The notes: generated by a model from the letters alone, not told the origin. A stretch of 42,863 nt of DNA from a virus (IMGVR_UViG_3300010403_000032:1-42863), one strand, 5' to 3'. Counted from the first letter of the stretch, positions 91-31,830 are shown. A program made the numbers and translations.

Positions 91-1369
91 CGACAGGCGA
101 GGCCGGCCCCTGGATGTCGACGGACGACTCGGCCCGCTGACCACCGAGGCGGTCAAGGCCGCCCAGCGTCGCCTAGGACTGCCGGCCAACGGGCACGTGG
201 ATCCGGCGATGCTGAGCCGACTCAAGGACTCCCCCTCACCAAGTGCGAGGAAGGCCAAGAAGAAGTGCGTATGTCGCTCGCTGTGCTTCTGTGACCTGTC
301 CCGGGCCATGTCCAGCGCCGACGTCAACGACCTATCCGATGAGGCCTTCGCCTACATCGAACCTGGCGGCTCCAGGGACTCCTCGGGCCGCACCGTTCCC
401 CGCTCCCTGCGGCACTTCCCCGTCCATGACGCCGCACACGTGCGCAACGCGCTGTCCCGGGCCCCGCAGTCCCCGTTCGGAGACAAGGCCATGCCGAAGA
501 TCCGCGCCGCGGCCAAGAAGATGGGTATCGCCATGTCCGACGACGGGATCCGCTCGTCCCTGTTGTACAACCGGATCTTCCCCCTCGACGACATCAACAT
601 CCAGCGCTCCGGCGACGGACGGACCGTCGAGGCGTACGCGGCGATGTTCGACTCGCCCTACGAGGTGCGCGACGAGCACGGGCACTACTACGAGTCCATC
701 CATCGGGCCGCGTTCGACCGGACCCTTCGTGGCAACAGTGGAGCGAAGGCGCTGTGTGTCTACAACCACGGCATGACGCTGCACGGCACCCCGGACGGCA
801 TGGCGTCGATCCCACTCGGATCACCACTGGAGATTCGACCTGACGGGCGGGGGCTGCTGACCGTCACCCGCTACAACAAGGGGCCCTTCGCCGACCAGGT
901 GCTGGAGTCGATCCGCAACGGTGACATCAAGGCCCAGTCCTTCCGTGGGCGGATCATCCGCTCCGACCCGTCCGGGCCCATACCCCGCCAGCGGCTGGGA
1001 ATGGCCCTGCCCACCATCACCCGCTTCGAACTCGGCCTGTCCGACTACGGCCCGACCCCGATCCCGGTCAACGCCGGGGCGGAGATCCTTGCCGTTCGAT
1101 CCATGGCCGATCTCGTCGCGGAACTGGAGTCACTCGACGCTGACGAGCGCTACGAGTTGCTCCGCCACCTCGCACCGTCCACTCCCGACGAGGACCCGGA
1201 CGACGACGAGGAGTACGAGGAAGACCTCGACTCGGAAGAGGACGAGGACGACACCGCCACCCCCGACGATTCGGGGCCCGGCGCCGAGGACCCGCCAGTG
1301 AAGGCACTCCGGTCGGCAGCAGACATCGCTCGACGTATCCGCGTCGAGCAGATCCTGAGGGGAATGTAA
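2..1369 (+). CDS. HK97-family prohead protease with N-terminal peptidoglycan-binding domain (5' partial)
   Basis: This frame is open from the window edge. Three regions can be seen. About 41-230 encodes a PG_binding_1-like repeat (RVRQLQAELNRLG, LDVDGRLGPLTTEAVKAAQ, GLPANGHVDPAML). About 310-530 encodes a small actinophage domain (FAYIEPGG, TVPRSLRHFPVHDAAHVRNAL, SPFGDKAMPKIRAAAKK). About 590-1080 encodes the HK97 prohead protease, with the likely catalytic His in VYNHGMTLHG and Ser in KAQSFRGRI. The tail is very acidic (DDDEEYEEDLDSEEDEDD), as scaffold-like regions often are. The protease should cleave the capsid delta domain and scaffold during head maturation. It stops one base before the capsid GTG. 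The first 40 bases are probably a fold-back artefact, so the true start lies outside the window; an internal ATG at 197 would remove the binding domain. Assignment of the protease is firm; the role of the first domain is unknown. Confidence 0.88.
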   Translation, partial: GCRGGSVPPAVDGDPRVRQLQAELNRLGIRDRRGRPLDVDGRLGPLTTEAVKAAQRRLGLPANGHVDPAMLSRLKDSPSPSARKAKKKCVCRSLCFCDLSRAMSSADVNDLSDEAFAYIEPGGSRDSSGRTVPRSLRHFPVHDAAHVRNALSRAPQSPFGDKAMPKIRAAAKKMGIAMSDDGIRSSLLYNRIFPLDDINIQRSGDGRTVEAYAAMFDSPYEVRDEHGHYYESIHRAAFDRTLRGNSGAKALCVYNHGMTLHGTPDGMASIPLGSPLEIRPDGRGLLTVTRYNKGPFADQVLESIRNGDIKAQSFRGRIIRSDPSGPIPRQRLGMALPTITRFELGLSDYGPTPIPVNAGAEILAVRSMADLVAELESLDADERYELLRHLAPSTPDEDPDDDEEYEEDLDSEEDEDDTATPDDSGPGAEDPPVKALRSAADIARRIRVEQILRGM

Positions 1370-2887
1370 GTGAACCGTCTGCTGGAAGTGGACAACGAAC
1401 TCAAGCTGGTCAACGACCGGCTGGAGCAACTCAAGGCGATGCCCGACCCCGAGGGCGACGAGGCGACCCGGTCCAAGGTCCTCGCTGACCGCGACACCGA
1501 GATCGACGACCTCATCGGCCGCTGGGATTCGCTGCAGGCCGAACGCGGGCCGCTGCTGGTGCGGGCCCAGAAGCTGCAGGACGTGACCGCCGCGGCGCGG
1601 GACATGGCCAAGGTGGAGGTCGGCGACGGCTCGCGCTATCTCGGTGGTGTCGGGCCGAGCGTCGGCAAGCAGGTCGACCCGTTCGACACCGACCCGCGCG
1701 AACTGTCGCGGTCCGAGGTGATCTCCCGGGCCCAGACGTTCATCGACAACGAGAAGCGCGTGCCGATCCGCGACGACGCGAAGGAGCACCTGCATCACCT
1801 GGTCACCCGCTCGCTGGAGGCCGACGAGGACGAGCAGTTCGACGGCTCGTACATCGCCCGGCGGATCCTGCTGACCGAGCACAAGGCCTACCGCAGCGCG
1901 TTCAAGAAGTACCTGCGCCTGGGTGGCCTGGCGCAGTACAACGCCGACGAGCAGCGGGCCATCGCCGCGTTCCAGGACCACGAGCTGCGCCGTGCCGCGT
2001 CGGAGAACACCACCACCGCCGGCGGCTTCGGCGTGCCGGTGATCATCGACCCGACGATCCTGATCACGTCAGGCGCGATCGATGCCCCGATGCTGCGGGT
2101 CTGCAGCATCGAGCAGGTCACCAACAACATCTGGAAGGGCGTCAGCTCGGCCGGCATGTCCTGGTCGTACGACACGGAAGCCGCCGAGGTGTCTGACGAC
2201 ACCGCGACCCTGGCTCAGCCGTCGGTGACCGTCCACATGGCTCGGGGCTATATCCCGTACTCGATCGAGGTCGGGCAGGACTACCCCGGCTTCGCCATGG
2301 AGATGGGCAAGCTGCTCAACCAGGGCTACACCGACCTGATCGCGGTCAAGACCATGACCGGGTCGGGCTCGGGTGAGCCGTTCGGCATCTTCACCGCACT
2401 GGACGCCAACACCTTCGATGAGGTCACCCCGACCACCGACGGCTCCTTCGGGGGCGTCGACGTGGTCAAGGTGTGGAACGCGCTCCCGGAGCGTTACCGG
2501 GGCCGGGCGACCTGGTTCATGTCGGTGCACGTCGAGTCGGCGATCCGCCAGTTCGCCTCGGCGGCCGGGTCGTCGTCGAGCTACTTCACCGTCGACCTGA
2601 CCGCCGACGGTGTGTCCCGGATCAACGGCCGGCCGGTCATCGTGACCGACTACGCGCCGACGTTCTCCGGGTCGGTGCCGGGCACGACGGGGGCGCAGAA
2701 CATCCTCGCCGTGGGCGACGCCAGCAACTACAAGTGGGTCCAGCGCGCCGGCATGTCCGTCGAGCAGGTCCCGATCGTCATCGGGTCGAGCCAGCGTCCC
2801 ACCGGCCAGCGGGGCATGTTCGCGTGGGCCCGCAACGGCGGCGACTCGATCAACGATTTGGGATTCCGCCTCCTCCAGAATCAGTGA
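1370..2887 (+). CDS. Major capsid protein, HK97 fold
   Basis: 505 aa from GTG directly after the protease stop, with GAGGGG about 9 nt upstream. Residues 1-80 are charged and helical (LLEVDNELKLVNDRLEQLKA), matching the delta/scaffold domain that the protease removes. The capsid fold starts near residue 216 (TTTAGGFGVPVIIDPTI). It continues with the typical TLAQPSVTVHMARGYIPYSIEVGQDYPG stretch and ends with the A-domain region GMFAWARNGGDSI. Length and order fit the family. It forms the icosahedral shell. It is the most abundant virion protein and therefore a likely target of the sugar enzymes encoded just downstream. Confidence 0.95.
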   Translation: MNRLLEVDNELKLVNDRLEQLKAMPDPEGDEATRSKVLADRDTEIDDLIGRWDSLQAERGPLLVRAQKLQDVTAAARDMAKVEVGDGSRYLGGVGPSVGKQVDPFDTDPRELSRSEVISRAQTFIDNEKRVPIRDDAKEHLHHLVTRSLEADEDEQFDGSYIARRILLTEHKAYRSAFKKYLRLGGLAQYNADEQRAIAAFQDHELRRAASENTTTAGGFGVPVIIDPTILITSGAIDAPMLRVCSIEQVTNNIWKGVSSAGMSWSYDTEAAEVSDDTATLAQPSVTVHMARGYIPYSIEVGQDYPGFAMEMGKLLNQGYTDLIAVKTMTGSGSGEPFGIFTALDANTFDEVTPTTDGSFGGVDVVKVWNALPERYRGRATWFMSVHVESAIRQFASAAGSSSSYFTVDLTADGVSRINGRPVIVTDYAPTFSGSVPGTTGAQNILAVGDASNYKWVQRAGMSVEQVPIVIGSSQRPTGQRGMFAWARNGGDSINDLGFRLLQNQ

Positions 2888-3105: not shown

Positions 3106-3330
3106 GTGGACTACGTCTACAGCAACAACGACGGCAGGGTGCTCAACAACGCCACCGGCGGCAGCGTATGGCTGCAGCCGGGCGACGTGTGGTACGCCGA
3201 CGACCCGTTCGTACTCTCCCGACCGGAGCTGTTCTCGGCGACTCCGACGGTCGTGCACTCGACGCAGGGCCGCGAGCCCCTGCCGGCGACGCCGGTGGAG
3301 GTTCCCCGCAAGGCGCGCGCCCGTGGTTAA
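3106..3330 (+). CDS. Small conserved-type virion-module protein, unknown function
   Basis: 74 aa from GTG with GGAGGA 8 nt upstream. The sequence has a short beta-rich core (YSNNDGRVLNNATGG, VWLQPGDVWYADDPFVLSRPELF) and a basic tail (PRKARARG). The ADDPxVxxRPELF pattern is common in small proteins that follow the capsid gene in actinophages, where no function has been assigned. It overlaps the next gene by 8 nt. It may be a head decoration or connector accessory, but this is only inferred from position. Confidence 0.7.
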   Translation: MDYVYSNNDGRVLNNATGGSVWLQPGDVWYADDPFVLSRPELFSATPTVVHSTQGREPLPATPVEVPRKARARG

Positions 3331-4747
3331 GGTCGCGGTCGGCTACGTGCACGACGACGCGGGCCGGGTGACTTCCTTCGAGGACTCGCTGGCCGCGCTG
3401 ATCGCCTTCGACCGCGCCAACGAAGGGCTGCTGAGCCACGACCAGAGTCGGATGACCGTGCGGTACGGCACTGATGGTCTGCCGGCGGCGCGCAACACGA
3501 TCGCGGCCCGGCTGGTCACCTCAGACGTGGACTGGTTGCTGTGGGTCGACACCGACATGGGGTTCGCGCCCGACGCGCTGTACCAGCTCCTGGTCGCTGC
3601 CGACCCCGAAACCCGGCCGGTGGTGGGTGGGCTGTGCTTCGCGCAGCGCCAGTACGCCCACGATGGGCTGAACGGGTACTGGACGAAGCCGCTCCCAACG
3701 GTCTACGACTGGCGGCCGGACGAGAACGGCACGCCGCAGTTCGCGTCGGTGCCGCTGTATCCGGTCAACGCCCTGGTTCGTTCCGCTGCGACGGGATCGG
3801 CATTCGTGCTGGTGCACCGCACGGTGTTCGAGAAGATCGCCGAGGAGCACGGCCCGACCTGGTACGACCGGATGCCCGGCGCGGACGGACGGCTGCTCGG
3901 TGAGGACATCTCGTTCTGTGCCCGCGCCGCCACGGTCGGGGTGCCGATCCACGTACACACCGGCGTGCGCACCTCTCACTTCAAGTCCCGCTGGCTGTCC
4001 GAGCCGGACCACTGGCGCGCCTACAACCCGCCGCCGGCCACGGATGAGGTGGCGGTCATCGTGCCCGTTCTGCGTAGACCGCAGAACGCCGAGCCGTTCA
4101 TGCGCTCGCTGCGGGCAAGTACCGGCCTGGCCCGGGCCTACGCGATCTGCGAGCCCGACGACGAGCAGACCGCCAAGGCGTGGGGTTCGGCCGGCGCCAA
4201 CATCATCTGGGGCGACGACGAGCGGGTCTCGGGGACTGAAGCCGTCGCGCACACCTTCGCCGAGAAGGTCAACCTCGGCTACCGCCAGACAGGCTTCCAC
4301 AACGAACCGTGGCTGTTCCTGACCGGTGACGACGTGAGGTTCCATGCCGGCTGGCTCGACCACGCCCAGCACGTCGCCGACGCGCTGCAGGCTGACGTGG
4401 TGGGCACCAATGACCTGGCCAACCCGCGGGTTCTGGCCGGCGACCACGGTACCCACCTGCTGGTGCGCCGCTCCTACGTGGACCAAGTCGGGGCGTCGTG
4501 GGACGGGCCGGGTGTGGTGGCGTGCGAGGCATATCACCACTGGTACGTCGACGACGAGATCGTCACTGCCGCCAAGCAACGCGGCGTGTGGCAGTGCGCC
4601 CTGGGCTCGGTGGTGGAGCACAACCATCCACTGTTCGGCAAGGGCGAGGACGACGACGTGTACGCCCTGGGCCAGTCCTTCGCCGAGGACGACAAGGCCA
4701 CGTGGTTGTCGCGGCTGGCGGCCAACACGCCCGAGGCGACGCCGTGA
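3323..4747 (+). CDS. Two-domain glycosyltransferase
   Basis: 474 aa from the GTG at 3323; the frame is open further upstream, but the shadow of the previous gene there is not protein-like. The N-terminal domain (about 1-235) is GT-A-like: VKVAVGYVH, LPAARNTIAARLV, WLLWVDTDMGF with the metal/nucleotide-sugar DxD at 76-78, and LLGEDISFCARA as the second acidic site. The second domain (about 240-474) restarts a nucleotide-binding fold (EVAVIVPVLRRPQ) and has GDDVRFHAGWL and VDDEIVTAAKQRG. Two transferase domains in one chain suggest two successive sugar additions. It opens an eight-gene chain (3323-8703) whose members overlap by 4 nt. The substrate is unknown; a virion protein is the natural guess from its place beside the capsid gene. 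Confidence 0.82.
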   Translation: MVKVAVGYVHDDAGRVTSFEDSLAALIAFDRANEGLLSHDQSRMTVRYGTDGLPAARNTIAARLVTSDVDWLLWVDTDMGFAPDALYQLLVAADPETRPVVGGLCFAQRQYAHDGLNGYWTKPLPTVYDWRPDENGTPQFASVPLYPVNALVRSAATGSAFVLVHRTVFEKIAEEHGPTWYDRMPGADGRLLGEDISFCARAATVGVPIHVHTGVRTSHFKSRWLSEPDHWRAYNPPPATDEVAVIVPVLRRPQNAEPFMRSLRASTGLARAYAICEPDDEQTAKAWGSAGANIIWGDDERVSGTEAVAHTFAEKVNLGYRQTGFHNEPWLFLTGDDVRFHAGWLDHAQHVADALQADVVGTNDLANPRVLAGDHGTHLLVRRSYVDQVGASWDGPGVVACEAYHHWYVDDEIVTAAKQRGVWQCALGSVVEHNHPLFGKGEDDDVYALGQSFAEDDKATWLSRLAANTPEATP

Positions 4748-5361
4748 ACGTGACTTCGGATCCGTTCCCGCACCTCGTGGTCGAGGGCTGGTGGTCAGCG
4801 GAACTGCTCCAAGCGGTCCTCGCCGAGTTCCCCGATCCGGCCGCACCCGGGTGGAAGCGCTACGACGGGGACCGCGAGCGCAAGCTTGAGGGCGCCCAAC
4901 GGCTGTGGGGGCCGCGCACCTGGGACCTGCTGGACGAGATCCGCCAGCGGGGCCCGGAACTGGCTGAAGCGTTCGGCCTGCCCGACCTGCACATGGAGAC
5001 CGTCGGCGGCGGATACCACCTGATCGAGCCCGGCGGGCTGCTGGACGTGCACTACGACTTCAACCGCTCGCCGCGCACCGGCCGGTTCCGCCGGCTCAAC
5101 CTGCTGGTCTACCTCAACGAGGACTGGCAGGACCCCGGCGGGCATCTGGAGCTGTGGGACGCCGAGAAGCGGGTCGTGGACATCGCGCCGGAGTTCAACC
5201 GGACCGCAGTGTTCGCCACGTCGGACCGGTCGTGGCACGGCCACCCCCACCCCGCGCAGCGGGTTCGCCGCAGTGTCGCGGCGTACTTCTATACCCGGGA
5301 GCCGCCGCCGGACTACGTCGGTGACCACTCGACGGTGTGGCACGCCGGAGCGTCGTCGTGA
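4744..5361 (+). CDS. 2-oxoglutarate/Fe(II)-dependent oxygenase
   Basis: 205 aa from GTG (GTGA overlap with the gene before). The double-stranded beta-helix motif set is complete. The iron-binding HxD is at H103-D105 (LLDVHYDFNRS), the distal His at H165 (RSWHGHPHP), and the 2-oxoglutarate-binding Arg near 176 (RRSVAAYFYT). RLNLLVYLNEDWQDPGGHLELWD is a strong prolyl-4-hydroxylase-type signature (2OG-FeII_Oxy_3). The family hydroxylates proline, lysine, other side chains or small molecules. Placed directly after a glycosyltransferase, it may create the hydroxyl to which a sugar is attached, but this is inference. Confidence 0.88.
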   Translation: MNVTSDPFPHLVVEGWWSAELLQAVLAEFPDPAAPGWKRYDGDRERKLEGAQRLWGPRTWDLLDEIRQRGPELAEAFGLPDLHMETVGGGYHLIEPGGLLDVHYDFNRSPRTGRFRRLNLLVYLNEDWQDPGGHLELWDAEKRVVDIAPEFNRTAVFATSDRSWHGHPHPAQRVRRSVAAYFYTREPPPDYVGDHSTVWHAGASS

Positions 5362-5636
5362 TCGGGCCGGACGGCTATGGCGACGCCGAGCTTCGCAAGC
5401 ACGACGACGGCCGGATCGAGGTCGTGCGCGCCGATGACGTGATCGGCATCTCGGTCGAACTCCTCGCGCAGTCCCTCGGCGCCGGCCTGTGGGTCGGAGG
5501 CGACGGGCTGCTCTGGCTGGCCGGCGATCCGCGCTATCGCTATCGACCGACGCGGTTCGTGTGCAACCTGCACGGATTGTCCGTGGACGAGGCGGTTGAG
5601 GGTGCGCGGGTGCTGGTCTGCGAGCGTGTGCCGTGA
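5358..5636 (+). CDS. Hypothetical protein in the tailoring cassette
   Basis: 92 aa from GTG 5358, overlapping the oxygenase stop by 4 nt. I do not recognise a family. It is a mixed alpha/beta protein with no membrane segment or Cys cluster (DDVIGISVELLAQSLGAGLW, LLWLAGDPRYRYRPTRFV). Overlaps on both sides show that it belongs to the cassette. Confidence 0.75.
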   Translation: MIGPDGYGDAELRKHDDGRIEVVRADDVIGISVELLAQSLGAGLWVGGDGLLWLAGDPRYRYRPTRFVCNLHGLSVDEAVEGARVLVCERVP

Positions 5637-6157
5637 AGCTTGAATGGCGCGACGTGGTGCTGCGCGAGGGCAGTCCGGCCATCTCCACGTCCCTGACGCT
5701 GGCTGAGACCGAAGAACTCCGCCGCCTGGCCACCGGCAAGGACGTGCTGGAGATCGGCTCGGCCTACGGCTACTCGGCGATCGTCATGGCCCTGGCGGGG
5801 GCACGGGTGACCGCGGTCGATCCGCACCAACAGCTCGGTTCGCTCGGACCAATGACGGCCAACGTCCTCGCCTACGCCGTCGCGAGCCAGGTCGACATCC
5901 GTGCCGGTGAAGCACAGCGGATCCTCCCGCACCTGCAGGCCGAGTTCGATCTGGTTTTCATCGACGGAGACCACGCCGCGGCGGCGGTGGCCCGGGACGT
6001 GACGATGTCGCGGGACCTGCTGCGCCACACCGGGACTCTCGTGTGCCATGACTACGACGAGGACACCTGCCCCGGGGTTCGTGAGGCGTTGGACGCCTGG
6101 AAGGTCCCGCCAAGGCTCGTAGACACCATGGCGATCTACGGGCCCGGTGAGTGGTGA
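5633..6157 (+). CDS. SAM-dependent methyltransferase (class I)
   Basis: 174 aa. Motif I is VLEIGSAYGYSAI (38-50), motif II is VTAVDPHQ, and DLVFIDGDHAAAAVARD (106-122) is the post-II acidic region of Methyltransf_24/O-methyltransferase-type enzymes; LVCHDYDEDTCPGV follows. The start is GTG with a 4-nt overlap. It probably methylates a sugar or small molecule made by its neighbours; DNA methylation is unlikely because no (N/D)PPY motif is present. Confidence 0.85.
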   Translation: MKLEWRDVVLREGSPAISTSLTLAETEELRRLATGKDVLEIGSAYGYSAIVMALAGARVTAVDPHQQLGSLGPMTANVLAYAVASQVDIRAGEAQRILPHLQAEFDLVFIDGDHAAAAVARDVTMSRDLLRHTGTLVCHDYDEDTCPGVREALDAWKVPPRLVDTMAIYGPGEW

Positions 6158-7170
6158 GGGTCGCCGTCGTCGGTGGCGGGATCTTCGGCTGCACCGCCGC
6201 CATCGAACTCGCCCGCGACGGTGCCCAGGTCGACCTGTACGAGCAGCGCAGCGACCTCCTTTCGGGGGCCACGGGCAGGATCCAGGCCCGCCTGCACCGG
6301 GGATACCACTACCCCTGCAGCCCCGAAACGGCTGGCGTGCTGAGGACCGCGGCGCACGAGTTCGCGTCCCGGTTCCACCCCGCGGTGCGTACCTACGCCC
6401 ACCACTATGTGATCGCCCGGGACTCCAGGGTCTCCGCCGAGCAGTACCTGGCGTTCTGTGACCGGATGGCACTGCCCTACGAGGTGGTGAATCCGCCACA
6501 GGTACACGGGGCGCAGGTGTGCGTGCGCGTACCCGAGTCGCTGGTCGACGTGAACATCCTGCGCCGACTGGTCCGCGCCGAACTGTCGCGAGCAGGAGTA
6601 CGGCTGCATCTCGGCCAGCGGCTCGAACCCCAGGGGTACGACCTGACCGTGCGGGCCACATACGGTCAGCCGTGGTCGCGCCCGCTGCGGTACGAGGTGT
6701 GCGAGACCGCGCTGGTAGAGGTGACGCACTACGGGGGTCAGTCGTTCGTGGTTCTCGACGGCGATCACGCCTCGCTGGACCCGCACGGCGCGGTGCACAT
6801 GCTCTACGACGTGGTCAACAGCGTCCACCACGCCAACGTCGGGCACTCGCCGGAGATCCCTGAGGAGTACGTGGATCTGCTCAACCGCAGCGGTCCGGTC
6901 AGGACGCCCCTGAGCCGGCACGAGGCGATGCTGCAGACCGCGTCGAAGCACCTGCGGGGTCTTGGTCCACGAGGCCAGGGGATCGGGATCTACCACGGCT
7001 CTTGGTTCGCGGTCCGCGCGGTCCTGCCCGATGTGGACGGCACGGACGAACGACCGACGCTGGTCGAGCACGACGGTGACGAGATTTCGATCCTCGGCGG
7101 GAAGGTTGATACCGCGCTCAGCGCGGCGCGTACCGTGCGCAACCTCGCGCTGGAGCGGGTTTCGGCGTGA
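6154..7170 (+). CDS. FAD-dependent oxidoreductase (DAO superfamily)
   Basis: 338 aa. The N-terminal Rossmann dinucleotide-binding motif is clear (RVAVVGGGIFGCTAAIELA, then the acidic residue in VDLYEQRSDLLSGAT). LLSGATGRIQARLHRGYHYP is the DAO-type FAD contact, and the C-terminal GGKVDTALSAARTV closes the FAD site. I chose GTG 6154 because it gives the same GTGA overlap as every neighbour; GTG 6151 is also possible. The family oxidises amino acids, amines or sugar-like alcohols. In this cassette it may modify a sugar donor or an attached group. The substrate cannot be read from the sequence. Confidence 0.82.
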   Translation: MRVAVVGGGIFGCTAAIELARDGAQVDLYEQRSDLLSGATGRIQARLHRGYHYPCSPETAGVLRTAAHEFASRFHPAVRTYAHHYVIARDSRVSAEQYLAFCDRMALPYEVVNPPQVHGAQVCVRVPESLVDVNILRRLVRAELSRAGVRLHLGQRLEPQGYDLTVRATYGQPWSRPLRYEVCETALVEVTHYGGQSFVVLDGDHASLDPHGAVHMLYDVVNSVHHANVGHSPEIPEEYVDLLNRSGPVRTPLSRHEAMLQTASKHLRGLGPRGQGIGIYHGSWFAVRAVLPDVDGTDERPTLVEHDGDEISILGGKVDTALSAARTVRNLALERVSA

Positions 7171-7751
7171 AGGTGTCGGTGATCACCCCGACCTGGCAAC
7201 GCCAGCAGCTTCTGTTGAGCCGTTGCATACCGTCGGTCGCCGCGCAGACAGTCCTGGTGGAGCACGTGGTCGTCTCCGACGGCCCCGATCCGGGCCTGCG
7301 GGACCTACTTGCCAACCTGGATGTGGTCTACGCCGAGGTGGCCGAGCACGCCGACGACCCGTGCAACTACGGAGCCCGGGCGCGCAACCGAGGACTTGAG
7401 GTAGCCACCGGGGACCTGGTCGCCTACCTCGACGACGACAACGCCTTCCGCCCCGAGCACATCGAGCGTCTCGCCGCGGCACTGGAGCAGAACCCGGACC
7501 GGGACTTCGCGTACTCGCGGATGTACCGGCACGGCCTGGGCGACGAGATCGGCGCCGAGCCGCCACAGCACGGCACGGTGGATTCGTCGGTCCTGATGCA
7601 CCGCCGCGACACCCCGGCGCGGTTCGGGCCCTGGCCGGTCCCGTCACCGTATGAGGTGGACTGGGAACTCGTGAAGACCTGGCTCGCGGCCGGCGCCACG
7701 TGGGTGTTCGTGCCCGAGGTCACCGTCGACTACTACTACAACGCGCGATGA
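7167..7751 (+). CDS. Glycosyltransferase family 2
   Basis: 194 aa GT-A enzyme. MKVSVITPTWQRQQLL is the typical first strand and helix, NYGARARNRGLEVATGDLVAYLDDDN contains the DxD equivalent (DDD 89-91), and TVDSSVLMHRRDTPARFGPW with VDWELVKTWLAAG is the acceptor half. The length equals a bare catalytic domain. It should transfer a sugar from a nucleotide donor. GTGA overlap upstream, ATGA overlap downstream. Confidence 0.9.
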   Translation: MKVSVITPTWQRQQLLLSRCIPSVAAQTVLVEHVVVSDGPDPGLRDLLANLDVVYAEVAEHADDPCNYGARARNRGLEVATGDLVAYLDDDNAFRPEHIERLAAALEQNPDRDFAYSRMYRHGLGDEIGAEPPQHGTVDSSVLMHRRDTPARFGPWPVPSPYEVDWELVKTWLAAGATWVFVPEVTVDYYYNAR

Positions 7752-8101
7752 CCGACATCGCGCTCCGCGAGGCTGGCTGGAGGATCACCGGTCGGGCCCA
7801 GATCGACGAGCGCCCACCGGTGTCATGTGCTCTCACGATCTGCGCTGACGGAACCTGGTCAGCGACCCTGGCCACCTTCACCATCGCGGGCCAGGTGGAT
7901 CTGTTCCTGGTCTCCGACGAGGGCGGTCACTTCTGCGGCCCCGCCTCGGTGGAGCGATCCCGCGCCGATTCCTACCCGTTCGCAATGCAGACCGACCTGG
8001 CCGGTGTCGGACCGCTGCTGGTGGTTGCGCCCGAGTCGGCTCTACCCGACCTCGACGAGATGCTCGACGCCGAGGTCGTCGAAGAGATATCCGCGCCGTG
8101 A
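7748..8101 (+). CDS. Hypothetical beta-rich protein in the tailoring cassette
   Basis: 117 aa from the ATG at 7748 (ATGA overlap). No family is recognised. Alternating strand pattern (ISC-type text such as VSCALTICADGTWSATLATF, QVDLFLVSDEGGHFCG) suggests a small beta-sandwich. It sits between two glycosyltransferases and ends in an acidic tail. Confidence 0.72.
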   Translation: MTDIALREAGWRITGRAQIDERPPVSCALTICADGTWSATLATFTIAGQVDLFLVSDEGGHFCGPASVERSRADSYPFAMQTDLAGVGPLLVVAPESALPDLDEMLDAEVVEEISAP

Positions 8102-8703
8102 TCTCGTGGATCGTCGCGTCGAACAACGAGACGATCCTCTACACCAACCTCGTCGCGTCCCTGGACTGGAACGTTGACGAGATCGTGGTGGCCTGGGAAG
8201 CGCCATCCATCGCGGCCGCCTACAACGACGGCCAGTCCCGGGCGAAGTACCCGATCCGCTGCTACATCCACCACGACGTGCAGGTGCTCGACCTTCCCGG
8301 TCTGCGTTCAGCGCTGTTGGCCACCGTCGACGAGTCGGTGGGCATGGTGGGGGTGGTCGGATCCCGTACCCCGAACCTACCGTGGTGGGACGGGGACCCG
8401 CTGGGCGGGGTGTTCGACCAGCGCATCGGCGCACAGGACTTCGGCCCCGGCGGTGAATGCGCCGTCCTGGACGGACTGCTGCTGGCCACCGTCCATGACG
8501 TGGAGTGGGACGAGTCGATCCCCGGCTGGCACGGCTACGACTTCGACGCTTGCGCTCAGATGACCGCCCAGGGGCTGCCGAACTGGTGCCTCGACGACGG
8601 GGTGCGGATGGTTCGGCATAACACGACCGGGGCCTTCAGCCCCGACCAACTCGACGGCTGGGACGACGCCCTGGCGCGCCTGAGGAAGAAGTGGGGGCGC
8701 TGA
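8098..8703 (+). CDS. StrF-like glycosyltransferase (Glyco_tranf_2_5 type)
   Basis: 201 aa. ISWIVASNNETILYTNLVASL, EIVVAWEAPSIAAAYNDG and YIHHDVQVLD are signatures of the StrF-type glycosyltransferase family (AYNxG and the HHD in place of DxD), with LDGLLLATVHDVEWDE and WHGYDFDACAQM in the second half. Homologues act on cell-surface or secondary-metabolite sugars. GTG start with 4-nt overlap. It is the last gene of the continuous cassette; the next gene starts after its stop with a virion protein. Confidence 0.83.
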   Translation: MISWIVASNNETILYTNLVASLDWNVDEIVVAWEAPSIAAAYNDGQSRAKYPIRCYIHHDVQVLDLPGLRSALLATVDESVGMVGVVGSRTPNLPWWDGDPLGGVFDQRIGAQDFGPGGECAVLDGLLLATVHDVEWDESIPGWHGYDFDACAQMTAQGLPNWCLDDGVRMVRHNTTGAFSPDQLDGWDDALARLRKKWGR

Positions 8704-8704
8704 C

Positions 8705-9085
8705 GTGGGCTCTCTGACCGACACCGCCGAAACCCGAGTGCTGGACTGGATCGTCGGGAACTCCACTACCGCCCCCACCACCCCGATGAAGTTGGCACTG
8801 CTGACCGCCACCGGTAGCGACTCCACCGCCGGCACCGAAGTGGTCGGCGGCTCCTACACCCGGCAGACCATCACCTTCACGGCTGCCGCGTCTGGAGCGA
8901 TGTCCAACTCGAACACGATCACATTCAGCACAATGCCTGCTTGCACTGTGACTGGCTGGGCCATCTACGACTCGGCCGGTACCCCGATCCGCTGGTGGCA
9001 TGGCGCGCTGGACGTGGCCAAGGCGCTCAACTCTGGCGACGACTTCATCGTCGCCATCGGGGACCTCGACCTGACCGCGGACTGA
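8705..9085 (+). CDS. Phage tail-fibre/virion-type protein
   Basis: 126 aa from GTG 1 nt after the previous stop. It begins SLTDTAETRVLDWIVGNST and continues MKLALLTATGSDSTAGTEVVGG, SYTRQTITFTAA and ITFSTMPACTVTGWAIYD. This is the layout of the small phage_tail_fib-type protein often found near actinophage head-tail genes. It should be a small beta-structured surface component. Family assignment is by pattern only. Confidence 0.72.
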   Translation: MGSLTDTAETRVLDWIVGNSTTAPTTPMKLALLTATGSDSTAGTEVVGGSYTRQTITFTAAASGAMSNSNTITFSTMPACTVTGWAIYDSAGTPIRWWHGALDVAKALNSGDDFIVAIGDLDLTAD

Positions 9086-9090
9086 GTCCC

Positions 9091-9831
9091 GTGACCGACT
9101 CGCTGTTCACCAGTCAGACGCCGGGCATCACGCAGGCCAACGACGCTCAGGGTGGCATCAACACCTCGCTCACGTTCACCCTCGGCGTCCCACGAACCAA
9201 CTCCGGCGCCCGGTTCTGGGGACCGACCACGACCACCGGTACGGTCACGCTGACTCTGTATCAGCTGACCAGCGACGACGACGTGACCGCCGCCGCCGGC
9301 ACCGTCCTGGCGCAGAAGGTGTCCCCGGCTTGGGCCGGTGGACAGTGGAACCCGCTCACCTGGGACAGCCCCGTCGCCCTGACCACTGGCCAGGCGTACC
9401 GGATCTCCGCCCACAACTCCAACGGGGACTACGTCGCCAGTGGTGGGGTGTTCTTCGCGGGCGGGATGACCAATGGCGACATCACGGGCATTCAGGACGG
9501 GGCGGACCCGAACCCGCCCGGTCTGGGAGCGCTACGCAACGGCGCCTTCCGGTACGGGGCGCTGGCCACCCCGCACGGCGGCGCCGCCGGGGCCAACTTC
9601 TTCATCGACATCCTGCTGGCCACCGGCGCCACGGTAACCGGCTCCGGCTCAGCCGCCCTGGCCACCGGTGCAACCGCGGCCGGCCGCGGTTGCACCCTCG
9701 GTGGCGGATCGGCCGCGCTCACCACGACTGCCCGGATCGCGTCCTCGCTGTCCGCCGGCTACCCACTGGTGAGCGCATCGACCATTCGCAGACTCACCAC
9801 CCATACCGCGAGTGGGCTGGAGGTGACGTGA
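9091..9831 (+). CDS. DUF4082-containing putative virion decoration protein
   Basis: 246 aa from GTG 9091. Residues about 10-140 fit DUF4082: FTLGVPRTNSGARFWGP, TVTLTLYQLTSDDDVTAAAG, ALTTGQAYRISAHNSNGDYVASGGVFF. The C-terminal third is low in complexity (ATGATVTGSGSAALATGATAAG). The domain is a beta-sandwich found in secreted and virion proteins of actinobacteria. Lying between the fibre-like gene and the connector, it is probably a head or tail decoration. It overlaps the next gene by 4 nt. Confidence 0.72.
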   Translation: MTDSLFTSQTPGITQANDAQGGINTSLTFTLGVPRTNSGARFWGPTTTTGTVTLTLYQLTSDDDVTAAAGTVLAQKVSPAWAGGQWNPLTWDSPVALTTGQAYRISAHNSNGDYVASGGVFFAGGMTNGDITGIQDGADPNPPGLGALRNGAFRYGALATPHGGAAGANFFIDILLATGATVTGSGSAALATGATAAGRGCTLGGGSAALTTTARIASSLSAGYPLVSASTIRRLTTHTASGLEVT

Positions 9832-10688
9832 CCACTTACGACGTAGGCGACCAGGCGCTGCTGCAGCACGAGGTGCGCGTCGCCGGGGTACTCACGGACG
9901 CGACGGTGGTCCTGGCGGTGACCGCCCCGGACGGAACCGCGTCGACGCCCGCGGTGACCCACGCCTCAACCGGCGTGTACACCGCTTCGGTCCCGGTCAC
10001 CCAGGCCGGGCCGTGGGTCTACGTGTGGACGATGTCCGGCGCGGTCGTGGACGTGGCGGTCGGGATGTTCTCGGGGCAGAACCCGACCACCCCGGTGTAC
10101 GCGACACCGGCGCAGGTGAAGAGCTACACCGGCATCTCGGATGCGAACTCCGACTCACGCATCGCCGATGTGCTCGCCGGGGTGTCCCGGGAGATCGACG
10201 GACACACCCATCGGCGTTTCTACGCCGACCTGACCGCGACCGCGCGCCGATTCACCGTGGAGAACGTCTGCGCGGTCGAGCTGCACGACTTCTGGACCAC
10301 CACCGGTCTGGTAGTCGAGGCTGACTACGGCGGGGACGGGACATTCGCGACCACCTACACCACCGCCGATTACGAGCTGTACCCGACTGACGGGATCGTC
10401 GACGGGGAAACCGGCTGGCCGTACAACGAGATCCGCGCCGTCAACCGTACCTTTCCCTGTCAGCGACTGCGTCCCGGGCTGCGAGTGACCGCGAAGTGGG
10501 GCTGGGCTGCGGTCCCCCCGTCGGTGCACGAGGCCTGCCTGATCCTGGCCGCCGAGACGCTCAAACTGCCCGACTCGGTCTTCGGTACCGGCGGCTACAG
10601 CGAGTTCGGGGTGATCCGGGTGCGGGACAATCCCATGGCCGCTCGTAAACTCGCCCGCTACGTGCGCGACCCGGTGCTGGTCGCATGA
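9828..10688 (+). CDS. Head-tail connector with N-terminal Ig-like domain
   Basis: 286 aa from GTG 9828. Residues 1-85 look like a beta-sandwich adhesion domain (YDVGDQALLQHEVRVAG, ATVVLAVTAPDGTAS, GPWVYVWTMSG). From about residue 88 the protein follows the gp6/HK97 connector pattern: VYATPAQVKSYTGIS, SDSRIADVLAGVSREIDGHT, VHEACLILAAETLK. The second part should sit in the neck between portal and tail. The Ig-like addition would face outward. The fusion of the two is unusual but the frame is unbroken. Confidence 0.78.
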   Translation: MTTYDVGDQALLQHEVRVAGVLTDATVVLAVTAPDGTASTPAVTHASTGVYTASVPVTQAGPWVYVWTMSGAVVDVAVGMFSGQNPTTPVYATPAQVKSYTGISDANSDSRIADVLAGVSREIDGHTHRRFYADLTATARRFTVENVCAVELHDFWTTTGLVVEADYGGDGTFATTYTTADYELYPTDGIVDGETGWPYNEIRAVNRTFPCQRLRPGLRVTAKWGWAAVPPSVHEACLILAAETLKLPDSVFGTGGYSEFGVIRVRDNPMAARKLARYVRDPVLVA

Positions 10689-11107
10689 ACCTCTCCGCCA
10701 TCCGCGACCGACTCAAGACGTGCCTGGAGACAGTGTCAGGAATCCGGGCCCACGACACCGTGCCAGGCAGCGTCACTCCGCCGTCGGGCGGGGCCAGTGC
10801 GATCGTCATGCCGGGTAGTCCGCTGGTCGAGTACCCGACCATGGACGTCGATGTGACGGACGTGAACTTCACCGTCATGTTGCTCACCGGTCGGGCCGAC
10901 GAACGGGCGGCGCAGGATAACCTCGACGCGTTCCTGGACCCCACTGGGGTGGCGAGTATCCGCGCGGCCATCGAAGTCAGCGCGGCCGAGTGGGACTACG
11001 CGGCGGTGTCCGGGATCCGTCGGTACGGAGCGTTCACCTTCGGATCCGGAGACGGCGCCGTGACCTACCTAGGATGCGAGTTCCCCGTCACGGTCGGCTG
11101 CTCGTGA
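10685..11107 (+). CDS. Tail terminator/neck protein
   Basis: 140 aa, ATGA overlap. MNLSAIRDRLKTCLETVSG, SAIVMPGSPLVEYPTMDVDV, FTVMLLTGRADERAAQDNLDAFLD and the closing TYLGCEFPVTVGCS follow the plan of small tail-terminator proteins (alpha helix, strand, helix, strand) located after the connector. Function is inferred from pattern and order. Confidence 0.75.
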   Translation: MNLSAIRDRLKTCLETVSGIRAHDTVPGSVTPPSGGASAIVMPGSPLVEYPTMDVDVTDVNFTVMLLTGRADERAAQDNLDAFLDPTGVASIRAAIEVSAAEWDYAAVSGIRRYGAFTFGSGDGAVTYLGCEFPVTVGCS

Positions 11108-12120
11108 GGTTCCTGCTCTCTCAGCCGGGACCAGCGTTCAGCGTCGCCGACGTTCACGCCGGCTGGCGGGAGGCGCTGATCGGGCTCGGGCAGCAGGTGA
11201 TCGACTACAACCTCGACGAGCGGCTCACGTTCTACGACCACGCGCTGCTGCCCACCGAAGTGGACGGTCGGTTCCGCAAGGCCCTGGACCCTGACGCCGT
11301 GGTGCAGTTGGCGATCAACGGGCTTTATGCGGCGCTGTTCAAATGCCGACCCGACGTGCTGATGGTGATCTCGGGCTTCTTTCTGCCGACCGAACTCTAC
11401 GATCTGGCCCGCGCCAACGGAATCCGGGTCGTGCTGGTGCACACCGAGTGTCCATATGAGGACGATCGGCAACTCGCCGCCGCCGGACACGTGGACCTGA
11501 ATCTGGTTAACGACCCGGTTGGTATCGAGGCGTTCGCAGCATTGGCTCCGACCCGCTACGTGCCGCACGCCTATCGCCCCACCGTCCACCAGCCTGGTCC
11601 CGCCACCCCGGAACTCGTGTGCGACCTTGGCTTCGTCGGCACCGGTTACCCCAGTCGGATCCAGTTCTTCGAGGCCATGGACCTTGCTGGCCTGGACGTG
11701 CTGCTGACCGGCAACTGGCAGGCACTGCGGGAGGACTCGCCCCTGCGCGGGTTCGTCGGTCACGACCCGGCTGAATGCCTGGACAACTCCGAGGCGGTGG
11801 GGCTCTACCGCAGCGCCCGGGTGGGGATCAACACGTACCGGCGCGAGGGCATCACGGCCGTGGGGTTGGCGATGGGTCCGCGCGAGGTGGAGATGGCTGC
11901 CTGCGGGCTGTTTTTCCTCCGTGATCCACGGCCTGAGGGTGACGGGGTGCTGGACATGCTCCCCACCTTCACCAGCCCGGCCGAGGCCTCACACCTGCTG
12001 CGGTGGTATCTCGACCGACCTGACGAGCGGGCCGCGCTGTCCACCAAGGCCCGCGAGGCGATCGCCGACCGAACGTTCCACAACCACGCCGCCGCACTGC
12101 TGCGGCTGCTCGACCAGTAG
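11104..12120 (+). CDS. CgeB-like GT-B glycosyltransferase
   Basis: 338 aa from GTG 11104. The N-terminal half has RFLLSQPGPAFSVADVHAG and DVLMVISGFFLPTELYDLA. The C-terminal half carries DLGFVGTGYPSRIQFFEAM, LYRSARVGINTYR and GPREVEMAACGLFFLRDPR, the nucleotide-sugar-binding region of the CgeB/Glyco_trans_1_2 group, then TSPAEASHLLRWYLDRPDER. It overlaps the tail terminator by 4 nt and ends 12 nt before the tail tube gene. Its place among structural genes suggests it works on a virion protein, possibly the tail tube. Family call is firm, target is inferred. Confidence 0.87.
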   Translation: MRFLLSQPGPAFSVADVHAGWREALIGLGQQVIDYNLDERLTFYDHALLPTEVDGRFRKALDPDAVVQLAINGLYAALFKCRPDVLMVISGFFLPTELYDLARANGIRVVLVHTECPYEDDRQLAAAGHVDLNLVNDPVGIEAFAALAPTRYVPHAYRPTVHQPGPATPELVCDLGFVGTGYPSRIQFFEAMDLAGLDVLLTGNWQALREDSPLRGFVGHDPAECLDNSEAVGLYRSARVGINTYRREGITAVGLAMGPREVEMAACGLFFLRDPRPEGDGVLDMLPTFTSPAEASHLLRWYLDRPDERAALSTKAREAIADRTFHNHAAALLRLLDQ

Positions 12121-12132
12121 AGGGAGCAAGTG

Positions 12133-12534
12133 ATGGCGCGCATTCACGGCCGGCGTGGCCGGATCTACATGGGGATCGCCAGCGACTCGGCCGCCGCCGA
12201 GCCGCTGCCGTTCTTCGCCCGGTGGTCGATCTCCTACAAGACCGACAAGGACGAGGTCACCGCGTTCGGCGACAGCCACAAGATCTACGTGTCCGGGTTG
12301 CCTGACGCGTCCGGGTCGTTCAGCGGTTTCTACGACGACGCTACGGCACAGACCTACACCGCAGCCAACGACGGACTGCCGCGCAAGTTCTACCTGTACC
12401 CGAGCATCCTGACCAACTCCCAGTACTTCTTTGGCACGGTCCTGCCCGACATGAACATCGACGGCGATGTCGGTGCATCGGTGAAGGTGTCCTCGGACTG
12501 GGCGGCGGCATCGCTGGTGCAGAAGGTCGGATGA
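12133..12534 (+). CDS. Major tail (tube) protein
   Basis: 133 aa from ATG 12133 with AGGGAG 6 nt upstream; the in-frame GTG at 12130 is too close to that site. MARIHGRRGRIYMGIASDS, FARWSISYKTDKDEVTAFGD and SGSFSGFYDDATAQTYTA are typical of small actinophage tail-tube proteins with a beta-barrel. Its own ribosome site, unusual in this chain, fits high expression. Order before the tail chaperones supports the call. Confidence 0.82.
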   Translation: MARIHGRRGRIYMGIASDSAAAEPLPFFARWSISYKTDKDEVTAFGDSHKIYVSGLPDASGSFSGFYDDATAQTYTAANDGLPRKFYLYPSILTNSQYFFGTVLPDMNIDGDVGASVKVSSDWAAASLVQKVG

Positions 12535-23185: not shown

Positions 23186-23410
23186 ATGTGGACCGCGAAG
23201 TTCTGGAAAGACGCCGCCGAGCGGGCGGTTAAGTCCGCCGCTCAGGGGCTGGTGCTGTACCTCACTGGCGGTCAGGTGTTCGACGCCTGGCGCACCAACT
23301 GGGCCGCCGCCGGCTCCATCGCGGGTAGCGCCGCTCTGCTCTCGCTGCTGAGTTCGATCATCTCCAGCTTCGTCGGCAACTCCACTTCGGCCTCGCTGGT
23401 GACCAAGTGA
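23186..23410 (+). CDS. r1t-type holin
   Basis: 74 aa from ATG with GGAAGG upstream. [21 protein letters not shown] at the start and the second hydrophobic segment [20 protein letters not shown], ending SASLVTK, are typical of the phage r1t holin family. It would form membrane lesions that release the endolysin. Confidence 0.88.
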
Positions 23411-24585
23411 CCGGCCTGCACCGGGTACCGGTGCGGCGGAGGTCCGGGTTGGGCCCGCGCGACGCGATCTGGCTCAGCGCAGTGGTGGGCGTCGCCGTCC
23501 TGTCCGGAGGCGTCGCCTACGGGGTGGCCACGTCGCAGTACACGCACCAGTGCAACGTGTCGACCAAGGCCAACGGGGGCATGGTCGTGGACTGCGACCC
23601 GATCCCCGGGCCCACCGGCGAGCCGACCCCGACCCCGACCACCCCAGGGCCCAGCCCGACGCCCTCCGCGACTCCTACACCAACCCCCACGACCCCCATA
23701 CCTACGCCTAGCGCCACCCCGACGCCGAGTCCGATGCCTTCCCCGACTCCGTCACCCACGCCCACACCGACGCCGAGCCCCACCGTCACCGGGCCACTGC
23801 TGAACTGCATGCCCCAGCCCTCCCGCTGCGGGTTCCCGGACGCCACCAACACCGGCGTACCCGCCGGCACGGTCCTGCGGGTCGTCAACGGGGACATGAC
23901 GTTCCTGGCCGGCGGCACGTACACCAACCTGGACATCCGCGGGTGCACCCGGGTGGGTGGATCGAACGTCACCATCCGCCGGGTGAAGATCCGCTGCACG
24001 GGGTCGTTGCCGATCGACATCGAGGACCGCCCGTCCATCACCGGCGTGCTCCTCGAGGACGTGGAGATCGACGCGGCCGGGCAGTTCAACGGCCGGGGGA
24101 TCGCCGGCGGCGGGTTCACCGCCCGCCGAGTGTGGTGGCATGGCGGGTCGGACTGCTCCCACTTCAACAGCAACGTGGTCATCGAGGACTCGTTCTGCGA
24201 CATCCCCCGCTACACCGGCACCGCTGATCCGCACCTGGACGGCTTCCAGTCCGGCGGCGGGGCGCACGTGACGCTGCGACACAACACCATCCGCAACGCG
24301 AACGGCCAGACCTCGGCGATCATCAACGGCCCGAATCTGCAGGTACTGGGGGCGCAGACCGACGTGCACATCGTCGACAACCTGATGTCCGGCGGCGGGT
24401 ACACGGTGTACTGCCAGGCCCACCCGGCGCCCCAGCCGTCCACCGCAGAGTTCCGGGGCAACCGGATCAGCCGGGAGTTCTACCCCCGGGGCGGGTACTA
24501 CGGGCCGATGACCGACTGCGCCGGGATCCCGGGCGCGACCACGACGATCTGGGACGACACGGGCCTGCCGATACCGCCCCAGTAG
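23407..24585 (+). CDS. Membrane-anchored beta-helix protein with Pro/Thr linker
   Basis: 392 aa from GTG (GTGA overlap with the holin). Residues 1-20 are basic; 20-42 form a membrane or signal-anchor helix ([21 protein letters not shown]). Residues about 66-126 are a Pro/Thr/Ser linker with PTP repeats, a style found in actinobacterial wall-spanning proteins. From about 130 to 385 the protein is a right-handed parallel beta-helix ([54 protein letters not shown]), the fold of polysaccharide lyases and tailspikes. Several Cys suggest disulfides outside the cell. It could act on wall glycans at lysis or change the lysogen surface. Catalytic residues cannot be assigned. Confidence 0.78.
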
Positions 24586-30088: not shown

Positions 30089-31279
30089 TCAGATCTCGGC
30101 CAACTCGTCGCTGATCTCTGCGTCCAGCTCGTCCAGGTTCACCGCCGCCAGCGCCGCGTCGATCGCGGTCAGGATGCCCTCGTCGACGGCCGGCATCAGG
30201 TGCCCGTACAGGTCGCTCGTCACCGCGATCGAGGAGTGCCCGACGCGGCGCTGAACCCCGGTGAGCGGGACGCCGTCCGAGATCAGGATCGCCGCGTGGG
30301 TGTGACGCAGGTCGTGGATGCGCAGCCCGGCCAGTCCGGCTGCCCTGGTCCACTGCACCCAGCCCCGGCGGAAGTTGCGGATCCGCACCGGCCCGCCCTG
30401 GGACGCGGTGAACAGCAACTCGGCCCGGTCGCGGCCGGACCACAGCGGCGTGAGCGTCATGGCGATCTGGACCGTGAACGTGACCGTGCGGCGGCTCGCC
30501 GCGGTCTTGGGGGTGGTGTAGATAATCTCGCCCGTCCCCGACAGTTCGTGCATGGCCTGCAGGACGGTCAGGCGGGGCGGCTTGGCCAGCAGGTCCACCC
30601 GCCCCACGCGCAGTCCGACCGCCTCACCCCAGCGCAGCCCGGTGCCGACCAGCAGCAGGACCAGCGGACGCCAGTGCTTGGGCACGGCGGCCAACAGCCG
30701 GCCGATCTCCGGTTCGGTGAGGAACCGCATCTCGTGGTGTACCCGCTCCGGCAGCGACTTGGCCGTGATCAGGCAGGGATTGGAGCGGATCAGCTTGTGC
30801 GCCACCGCCGCAGCCAGGATCTTGTGAAGGATGGCGTGCACGTTGCGCACCGTCTTTGGGCTCAGTTTCCTGCGCTCCGCCTGCCGTCGGCGTTTGCCAG
30901 CCACCGCCTCGGCCATGGGACCCCGCCCCGCGGTCAGGTCGGCCAGCCACCGCTGGACCACCAGCGGCTGCTCCAGTTCCTCCAGGGCGTAGCGACCGAG
31001 CAGCGGCAGGATGTGGTTGCGCACCCGGGCCGGCTCGGACTGTGCCGATGACGGCTTCAGGCCACCCTCGTATGTCGGCAGCCAGGCGTCGATCCAGTCG
31101 GCCAGCAGCACCCGCCCGCCCCGGGGCACCAGAGCGTCACCGCGCATCCGGTCGGCCTGGGCGGTGACGATCGCGGTCTTGGCCGCGGTCTTGGACGCGT
31201 AGCCGGACTGGACGGTGACGACCTCGCCGGCGATGCGGTCGCGGATGCGCCAGGTCTTGCCGTGCTTCTCCGCCCACAT
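30089..31279 (-). CDS. int: Tyrosine-type integrase
   Basis: 396 aa from ATG 31279. An N-terminal arm-binding region (WAEKHGKTWRIRDRIAG, YASKTAAKTAIVTAQ) precedes a core-binding SAM-like domain (LLADWIDAWLPTYEGGLKPSS). The catalytic domain has the Arg in GTGLRWGEAVGL, Lys in YTTPKTAASRRTV, HDLRHTHAAILIS (HxxR), VGHSSIAVTSDLYGH (second His and the nucleophile Tyr). All active-site residues are present, so it should be functional. It recombines attP with a tRNA attB. Its start overlaps the repressor stop by 1 nt, so the two are co-expressed. Confidence 0.95.
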   Translation of the reverse strand: MWAEKHGKTWRIRDRIAGEVVTVQSGYASKTAAKTAIVTAQADRMRGDALVPRGGRVLLADWIDAWLPTYEGGLKPSSAQSEPARVRNHILPLLGRYALEELEQPLVVQRWLADLTAGRGPMAEAVAGKRRRQAERRKLSPKTVRNVHAILHKILAAAVAHKLIRSNPCLITAKSLPERVHHEMRFLTEPEIGRLLAAVPKHWRPLVLLLVGTGLRWGEAVGLRVGRVDLLAKPPRLTVLQAMHELSGTGEIIYTTPKTAASRRTVTFTVQIAMTLTPLWSGRDRAELLFTASQGGPVRIRNFRRGWVQWTRAAGLAGLRIHDLRHTHAAILISDGVPLTGVQRRVGHSSIAVTSDLYGHLMPAVDEGILTAIDAALAAVNLDELDAEISDELAEI

Positions 31280-31665
31280 CAGGACTCCCCGGCCGCCAGG
31301 TCGATCATCTTCTGGGTGTCGTCCAGGTCCCGGGCCCGCCGTGCGCGGACGATCGCGATGATCGCGTCCTTCTTGGCCTGCGGAAGATCCGACTCCATGA
31401 TCGAGCGCATCTCCGGGTCGTCGTCGAGGCGCGGTGGGCCGAGGGTCTCGGCTGCGGCCAGCATGGCGACGGACGGCTCCACGTCCAGCGCCCTAGCAAT
31501 GCGGTGAACGCTGTGCAGCGTCAGTCCCGGCTCACCCTTGATCCACCGGAAGATCGACGACCGGTTCAGGCCGGATTCCCTGGCGAGGCGGGCGACGCTC
31601 CAGCCTGGCCGCCTGGTCATCTCGGTCAGGAACCTGGACCAGCCGGTCGGCTTAGCGTCGCTCAC
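31279..31665 (-). CDS. XRE-family immunity repressor
   Basis: 128 aa from GTG 31665; ATG 31719 or 31821 would also be in frame but lie in or at operator sites. HTH: GWSVARLARESGLNRSSIFRWI, then LTLHSVHRIARALDVEPSVAM. The C-terminal half is helical and charged (EMRSIMESDLPQAKKDAIIA) with no peptidase motif, so it is not a LexA/cI cleavage type. It faces the cro-like gene across four operators and should keep the lytic promoter off. Co-translated with integrase. Confidence 0.85.
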   Translation of the reverse strand: MSDAKPTGWSRFLTEMTRRPGWSVARLARESGLNRSSIFRWIKGEPGLTLHSVHRIARALDVEPSVAMLAAAETLGPPRLDDDPEMRSIMESDLPQAKKDAIIAIVRARRARDLDDTQKMIDLAAGES

Positions 31666-31712
31666 ACGGTCACCGTAGGACGCCTCCCACCAGCGCGGGA
31701 ACACAGCGCGGC

Positions 31713-31728
31713 GTCGCATCTTTGCGTC
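31713..31728. promoter_or_regulatory. Operator site 1
   Basis: GTCGCATCTTTGCGTC. Member of a four-site family with consensus GTCGYATMWWTGCRAC. It covers an in-frame ATG of the repressor. Confidence 0.65.
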
Positions 31729-31814
31729 ACGCGTGGGCGGTCTGCTGTTGCGTTCGCTTCGGGACTCTGGCCGGTTGTGGATGGACTTGACGCGCCGTTC
31801 TCTCCCCAGGTGCA

Positions 31815-31830
31815 GTCGCATAACTGCGAC
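31815..31830. promoter_or_regulatory. Operator site 2
   Basis: GTCGCATAACTGCGAC, the best copy, with perfect 6-bp arms (GTCGCA/TGCGAC). Confidence 0.7.

Follow-up and report, generated by a model that had tools for sequence, protein, structure and literature searches.

A capsid-linked glycosyltransferase and an exchangeable enzyme slot suggest virion glycosylation encoded in the head operon of uncultured phages

We analyzed IMGVR_UViG_3300010403_000032:1-42863, a 42,863-base IMG/VR virus record, over its whole length (hereafter the window). Its head operon contains a run of eight genes, named g1 to g8 in order and together called the cassette; the ORF at 3106-3330 is termed g0. The features of this region are:

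197..1369, plus strand: head maturation protease, flanking gene (PHROG_80, 6e-21)
1370..2887, plus strand: major capsid protein (MCP), flanking gene and proposed acceptor, a role that is inferred (PHROG_10, 3.5e-24)
3106..3330, plus strand: g0, small constant protein in the MCP-g1 gap (70/78 contigs; 22/39 family members match PHROG_9538, 'head-tail connector')
3323..4747, plus strand: g1, glycosyltransferase of GT-A type with two domains, the constant core enzyme (PHROG_34859, 2e-22)
4744..5361, plus strand: g2, 2OG-Fe(II) oxygenase, prolyl-hydroxylase type (PF13640, 1.3e-16)
5358..5636, plus strand: g3, 92-aa orphan (no family, no relative)
5633..6157, plus strand: g4, SAM methyltransferase, Methyltransf_24 (PF13578, 1e-17)
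6154..7170, plus strand: g5, FAD-dependent oxidoreductase, DAO fold (PF01266, 5e-13; model pLDDT 90.8)
7167..7751, plus strand: g6, GT2 glycosyltransferase, directly 3' of g4-g5 in relatives (PF00535, 4e-18)
7748..8101, plus strand: g7, 117-aa orphan (no family, no relative)
8098..8703, plus strand: g8, StrF-like glycosyltransferase (PF13712, 6.5e-22)
8705..9085, plus strand: g9, head/fibre protein (Gp80-like), directly downstream of the cassette (PF23140, 5e-25; PHROG_240 head protein, 3e-20)
9828..10688, plus strand: head-tail adaptor, flanking gene and downstream border of the slot (PHROG_442, 1e-24)
11104..12120, plus strand: CgeB-type glycosyltransferase, second of the two constant enzymes, immediately 5' of the major tail protein gene (PF13524, 5e-13)
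12130..12534, plus strand: major tail protein (MTP), flanking gene and proposed second acceptor, a role that is inferred (PHROG_10528, 3e-8)

The genes g1 to g8 are intact ORFs with a GC distribution by codon position of the coding type, and they overlap by 4 nt at 7/7 internal junctions, the g0/g1 overlap being 8 nt. This agrees with the initial annotation of eight genes with 4-nt overlaps, and its domain calls were likewise recovered: PF13640, PF13578, PF01266, PF00535 (g6) and PF13712 (g8) match, and g1 matches phage glycosyltransferase families. The PHROG-annotated flanks (protease, major head protein, head protein, head-tail adaptor, tail terminator and major tail protein) also confirm the placement of the cassette, with capsid genes on one side and neck genes on the other. 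Overlaps of 4 nt also join the genes beyond the cassette, through 9082, 9828, 10685 and 11104; because this coupling extends through the neck genes to 11104, the region represents one late operon rather than a separate cassette. The sugar gene set also continues past 8703 to the CgeB-type gene (11104-12120), which is flanked by the tail terminator and MTP genes. The set comprises four glycosyltransferase genes by domain and PHROG profiles (the two-domain g1, g6, g8 and CgeB). No transmembrane-like segment was detected in any cassette protein, and no nucleotide-sugar synthesis gene was found within the cassette itself. An integrase (30089-31279) and an HTH protein (31279-31821), both minus-strand ORFs of the window, identify the phage as temperate. 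Directly 3' of the cassette, the Gp80-type head/fibre protein is followed by a DUF4082 protein (8705-9831), and the same pair occupies the same place in one relative (L094).

Relatives were collected from IMG/VR with g1, g2 and g5 as queries, which yielded about 160 viral loci among the matches listed; each search contributed its best 80 loci, and the fractions given here describe those samples, not nature. One profile per window gene was mapped onto the relatives, whose ORFs were called mechanically, and the counts exclude re-fetched and obviously duplicate contigs. Among the matches listed, g1 is located 143-2339 bp 3' of the MCP gene and on the same strand in 78/78 contigs carrying both; some near-identical contigs remain in this set, so that 78 is not a number of independent events. 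The contigs behind this count had been retrieved via cassette genes and not via the MCP. The small gene g0 sits in the MCP-g1 gap in 70 of these 78 contigs, again among the matches listed. The identity of the relatives to the window ranges from about 35 to 68%, indicating that the linkage of MCP and g1 is old. As far as sequence comparison can tell, g1 thus belongs to the constant genes of the head module. With at least 545 relatives of g1 in IMG/VR, hundreds of uncultured phages appear to have kept a related capsid-linked glycosyltransferase with exchangeable extra enzymes.

A second glycosyltransferase shows a comparable linkage to the tail. The CgeB-type gene occurs in 17 contigs and, among the matches listed, directly precedes the MTP gene in 14/14 uncut ones, so that its tie to the major tail gene is shown by gene order for part of the family. 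In 50,697 phage records from cultured phages, no close homologue was found of g1 (best match 28% over a third of the protein), g5, g8 or the CgeB-type enzyme. A search for the host with g1 in 396 Actinomycetota genomes returned no match and is uninformative. In one relative (L003:8397-9992), the two g1 domains are split by an apparent wrong-frame stretch and a g0-like match lies in another frame, a possible frameshift or re-arrangement. In most relatives, the tail of the g0 homologue is strongly conserved as ExATxxPGExR, a motif that is lost in the lineage of the window. g0 was considered as a hydroxylase acceptor and rejected, as its proline-containing tail is found with and without g2 and shows no correlation with it.

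In contrast to g1, the genes that follow it vary. Among the matches listed, 25 contigs have a 2OG oxygenase gene, as a rule immediately 3' of g1, six carry the g4-g5-g6 unit along with g1, 68 show neither, and only 1/100 contigs, the window itself, combines the two. The 55-kb and 67-kb contigs of L009 and L080 are examples with g1 plus g2. Other relatives carry many methyltransferases, four nucleotide-sugar epimerases, a sugar C-methyltransferase, more glycosyltransferases or nothing recognisable, and this cargo adjoins fibre-like proteins that bear carbohydrate-binding domains. By its gene content across relatives, the g1-adaptor interval is therefore an exchangeable slot, and the cassette is composite. 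The initial annotation had grouped the eight genes as one cassette and proposed a search for the same order in other genomes; the relatives carry either the oxygenase or the methyltransferase-FAD-GT2 unit, which rejects a fixed eight-gene pathway, and since the modules are found apart, they work independently. In capsid-related cultured phages, no annotated glycosyltransferase lies between capsid and adaptor. The slot of prophiGD02-2 (L267), a cultured prophage of M. abscessus whose capsid is related, may also bear cargo: an annotated 'oxidoreductase' (7412-7918) lies directly 3' of its capsid gene.

Among the matches listed, the capsid, g0, g1 and FAD module of the window are closest to one lineage (L089, L091, L094), whereas its oxygenase is closest to those of phages with distant capsids (L003, L009). 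The window phage hence looks, from these similarities, like a member of the FAD lineage that acquired an oxygenase. The genes g4, g5 and g6 are collinear in every relative with intact g5 flanks. They are also found in the head region of contigs with no detected g1 (L095-L097) and, in L002, away from the head region beside tail genes. In this different, larger phage (L002:5873-12244), the unit belongs to a bigger sugar cluster 3' of a tail-protein gene, which also encodes a sugar C-methyltransferase and a CgeB-type glycosyltransferase. For the two small genes, g3 and g7, neither a family match nor a relative appeared in any search, even where the enzymes are conserved. They were therefore dropped as conserved factors, and the earlier suggestion that they are candidate acceptor or specificity factors is not supported.

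The predicted model of g5 has the fold of glycine and sarcosine oxidases (glycine oxidase match, E 8e-17), and its sequence match to solved proteins is confined to the FAD-binding end. It shares this fold with the DAO-type flavin oxidases of glycine, sarcosine and glycerol-3-phosphate but is only 15% identical to them, and forms a subfamily of its own, to which no solved protein is close in sequence and which is found in polysaccharide loci. Cellular relatives with about 35-41% identity occur in diverse bacteria and archaea and adjoin genes for GT4, GT2, Gfo/Idh/MocA, FkbM methyltransferase, aminotransferase and epimerase proteins. These surroundings point to a role of g5 in sugar chemistry.

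For g2, both profile and fold lead to protein prolyl hydroxylases. The residues predicted to bind iron and 2OG (H103-x-D105 and H165 as the Fe(II) triad, R175 for 2OG) are invariant in 27 sequences. The profile search returned human OGFOD1 first (6.8e-12), followed by prolyl hydroxylases, and the fold matches of the model (pLDDT 95) are headed by Tpa1, OGFOD1, the P. putida prolyl hydroxylase (P4H) and PHD2. g2 has in common with these proteins the fold and the active-site HxD...H...R residues, but is only 16-24% identical to solved members. It carries PF13640 and a prolyl-hydroxylase fold rather than features of the TET/JBP family, so that we assign it, from profile and model, to the Tpa1/OGFOD1/P4H type. 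These matches favour a protein as substrate and lend real, if predicted, support to the earlier idea that the oxygenase creates a hydroxyl on a virion protein.

The pairing of an oxygenase with glycosyltransferases is reminiscent of TET/JBP-type DNA systems, and glycosyltransferase modification of phage DNA is well known. Oxidation and glycosylation of phage DNA bases by the cassette is nevertheless very improbable: g2 belongs to the protein prolyl hydroxylase group by profile and fold, no base hydroxymethylase or TET/JBP protein was present among the ORFs scanned, which cover part of the remaining window, and the genes lie among head and tail genes, not replication genes. Enzymes of the prolyl-hydroxylase fold can also use small molecules, which counts against a virion-directed role; PolD and PasI, both among the fold matches of g2, act in natural-product pathways. 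DAO enzymes often use amino acids, and synthesis of a metabolite was proposed for gene clusters of jumbo cyanophages that encode similar enzymes (PMC7824862). That the cassette makes a metabolite, free or linked to a peptide, that has no connection with the particle is still improbable for this set of genes, which has several glycosyltransferases with no obvious small acceptor, contains no core scaffold-forming enzyme, carrier protein or exporter, and shows a tight and general linkage of g1 to the capsid gene.

Collagen-like repeats are the classic substrate of a prolyl hydroxylase together with a glycosyltransferase. As an acceptor they were discarded: a scan of all frames of the window and of L002, with L003 left out, found no run of (GXY)6 or longer. 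The ORF at 23407-24585 encodes an N-terminal hydrophobic segment, a long Pro/Thr/Ser repeat (PTPTPSPTP...) and, by eye, a beta-helix-like domain. Such repeats are typical of O-glycosylation or prolyl-hydroxylation sites, and this protein could be an alternative substrate.

Virion glycosylation explains the locus best, given that the capsid gene and the tail gene each have a glycosyltransferase gene tied to them. Capsid and tail tube, the neighbours of g1 and CgeB, are the two proteins described as glycosylated in mycobacteriophages in the reports cited below. The cargo of the slot in relatives, with its methyltransferases, nucleotide-sugar epimerases, C-methyltransferase and glycosyltransferases, represents sugar chemistry, which favours the same reading. 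Gene position is evidence of co-regulation at most. We consider it probable, on gene content and predicted folds, that the cassette is a virion-glycosylation system, with both acceptor and product being predictions. A virion-directed role, as proposed in the initial annotation, thus stands as the best reading, based on the conserved adjacency to capsid and tail genes together with Pfam links and weak profile links to genes of phage Che8.

The enzymes might instead act on glycans of the host cell wall or capsule, so that receptors change and re-infection or re-adsorption is blocked. Glycosyltransferase clusters of pelagimyophages (PMC7029224) and clusters of 2OG oxygenase, O-methyltransferase and glycosyltransferase genes in large cyanophages (PMC7824862) have been read in this way, and the cellular relatives of the FAD enzyme reside in polysaccharide loci. 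We regard such host-surface modification as unlikely here: the genes lie inside the structural operon and not beside the integrase and repressor (30089-31821), as expected for lysogen conversion, the set includes no flippase or membrane protein, and diverse phages share the linkage of g1 with the capsid gene and of CgeB with the tail gene.

Under virion glycosylation, g1 and CgeB would attach sugar to the capsid and tail-tube proteins in the cytosol late in infection. g2 would hydroxylate a virion protein, most likely at a proline, and so provide an extra attachment or decoration site. The glycan would be extended by g6 and g8, a sugar hydroxyl or amine could be oxidised by g5, and g4 would methylate the sugar; hydroxylation, glycosylation, oxidation and methylation are a putative order. 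Hydroxyproline-linked sugar is well known in plants, and hydroxyproline as a glycan attachment site is plausible here given the profile and model of g2. Enzyme swaps in the slot would change the surface glycan of related phages, plausibly altering particle recognition, so that the exchangeable enzymes probably give particles coats of varying sugars. Only tentatively do we advance the full proposal: that a phage prolyl hydroxylase makes a site on its own capsid or tail-tube protein, and that head-operon glycosyltransferases, FAD oxidase and methyltransferase build on it an oxidised, methylated hydroxyproline-linked glycan, in a position-conserved, exchangeable 'capsid glycan slot' of a large group of uncultured siphophages. 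If true, virion glycosylation would be built into the head operon of this group rather than being an occasional extra, and a dedicated slot would swap tailoring enzymes much like tail-fibre genes. Particle surface chemistry would then be a fast-evolving trait that is predictable from the genome, a glycosyltransferase gene directly 3' of the capsid gene would be a practical genomic marker for glycosylated virions, and hydroxyproline-linked sugar would be suggested as a possible phage modification.

Phage-encoded glycosyltransferases modify capsid and tail-tube proteins in mycobacteriophages, and Corndog-type phages carry three tandem glycosyltransferase genes 3' of an O-methyltransferase gene, according to PMC11600133, PMC12363180 and PMC12619734. 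These papers attribute the description of virion glycosylation in Che8, Corndog and Myrna to Freeman et al. 2023, and PMC12363180 reports Che8 gp110 to be essential for capsid glycosylation. Our comparison with the three phages is based on these citing papers and on the Che8 sequences. Like the window, they encode glycosyltransferases together with an O-methyltransferase, and Che8 gp110, which is distantly similar to g1, was the sole control-phage match of the g1 profiles. By domain search, the Che8 operon encodes GT2 plus Methyltransf_24, GT2 and GT25-type proteins, the first being gp108, a GT2 fused to a Methyltransf_24 domain. The profile matches, from a small set, are weak (8.6e-5 for the g1 C domain and gp110, 1e-6 for g6 and gp108). 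Methyltransf_24 is common to g4 and the C domain of gp108, although no match to gp108 was obtained with the g4 profile, and the links of the cassette to Che8 proteins are weak and at the superfamily level. Whereas the window has its genes in the head operon with both an oxygenase and an FAD oxidase, the annotated Che8 operon lists neither and lies at the far end of the genome. The Streptomyces phages Zuko and KimJongPhill have an oxygenase-glycosyltransferase-methyltransferase-glycosyltransferase operon without an FAD oxidase, close to the end of the genome and surrounded by tRNA genes and small genes. Its oxygenase, annotated only as a hypothetical protein, is a relative of g2 with 41-42% identity and adjoins a glycosyltransferase, a methyltransferase and a g6-related glycosyltransferase.
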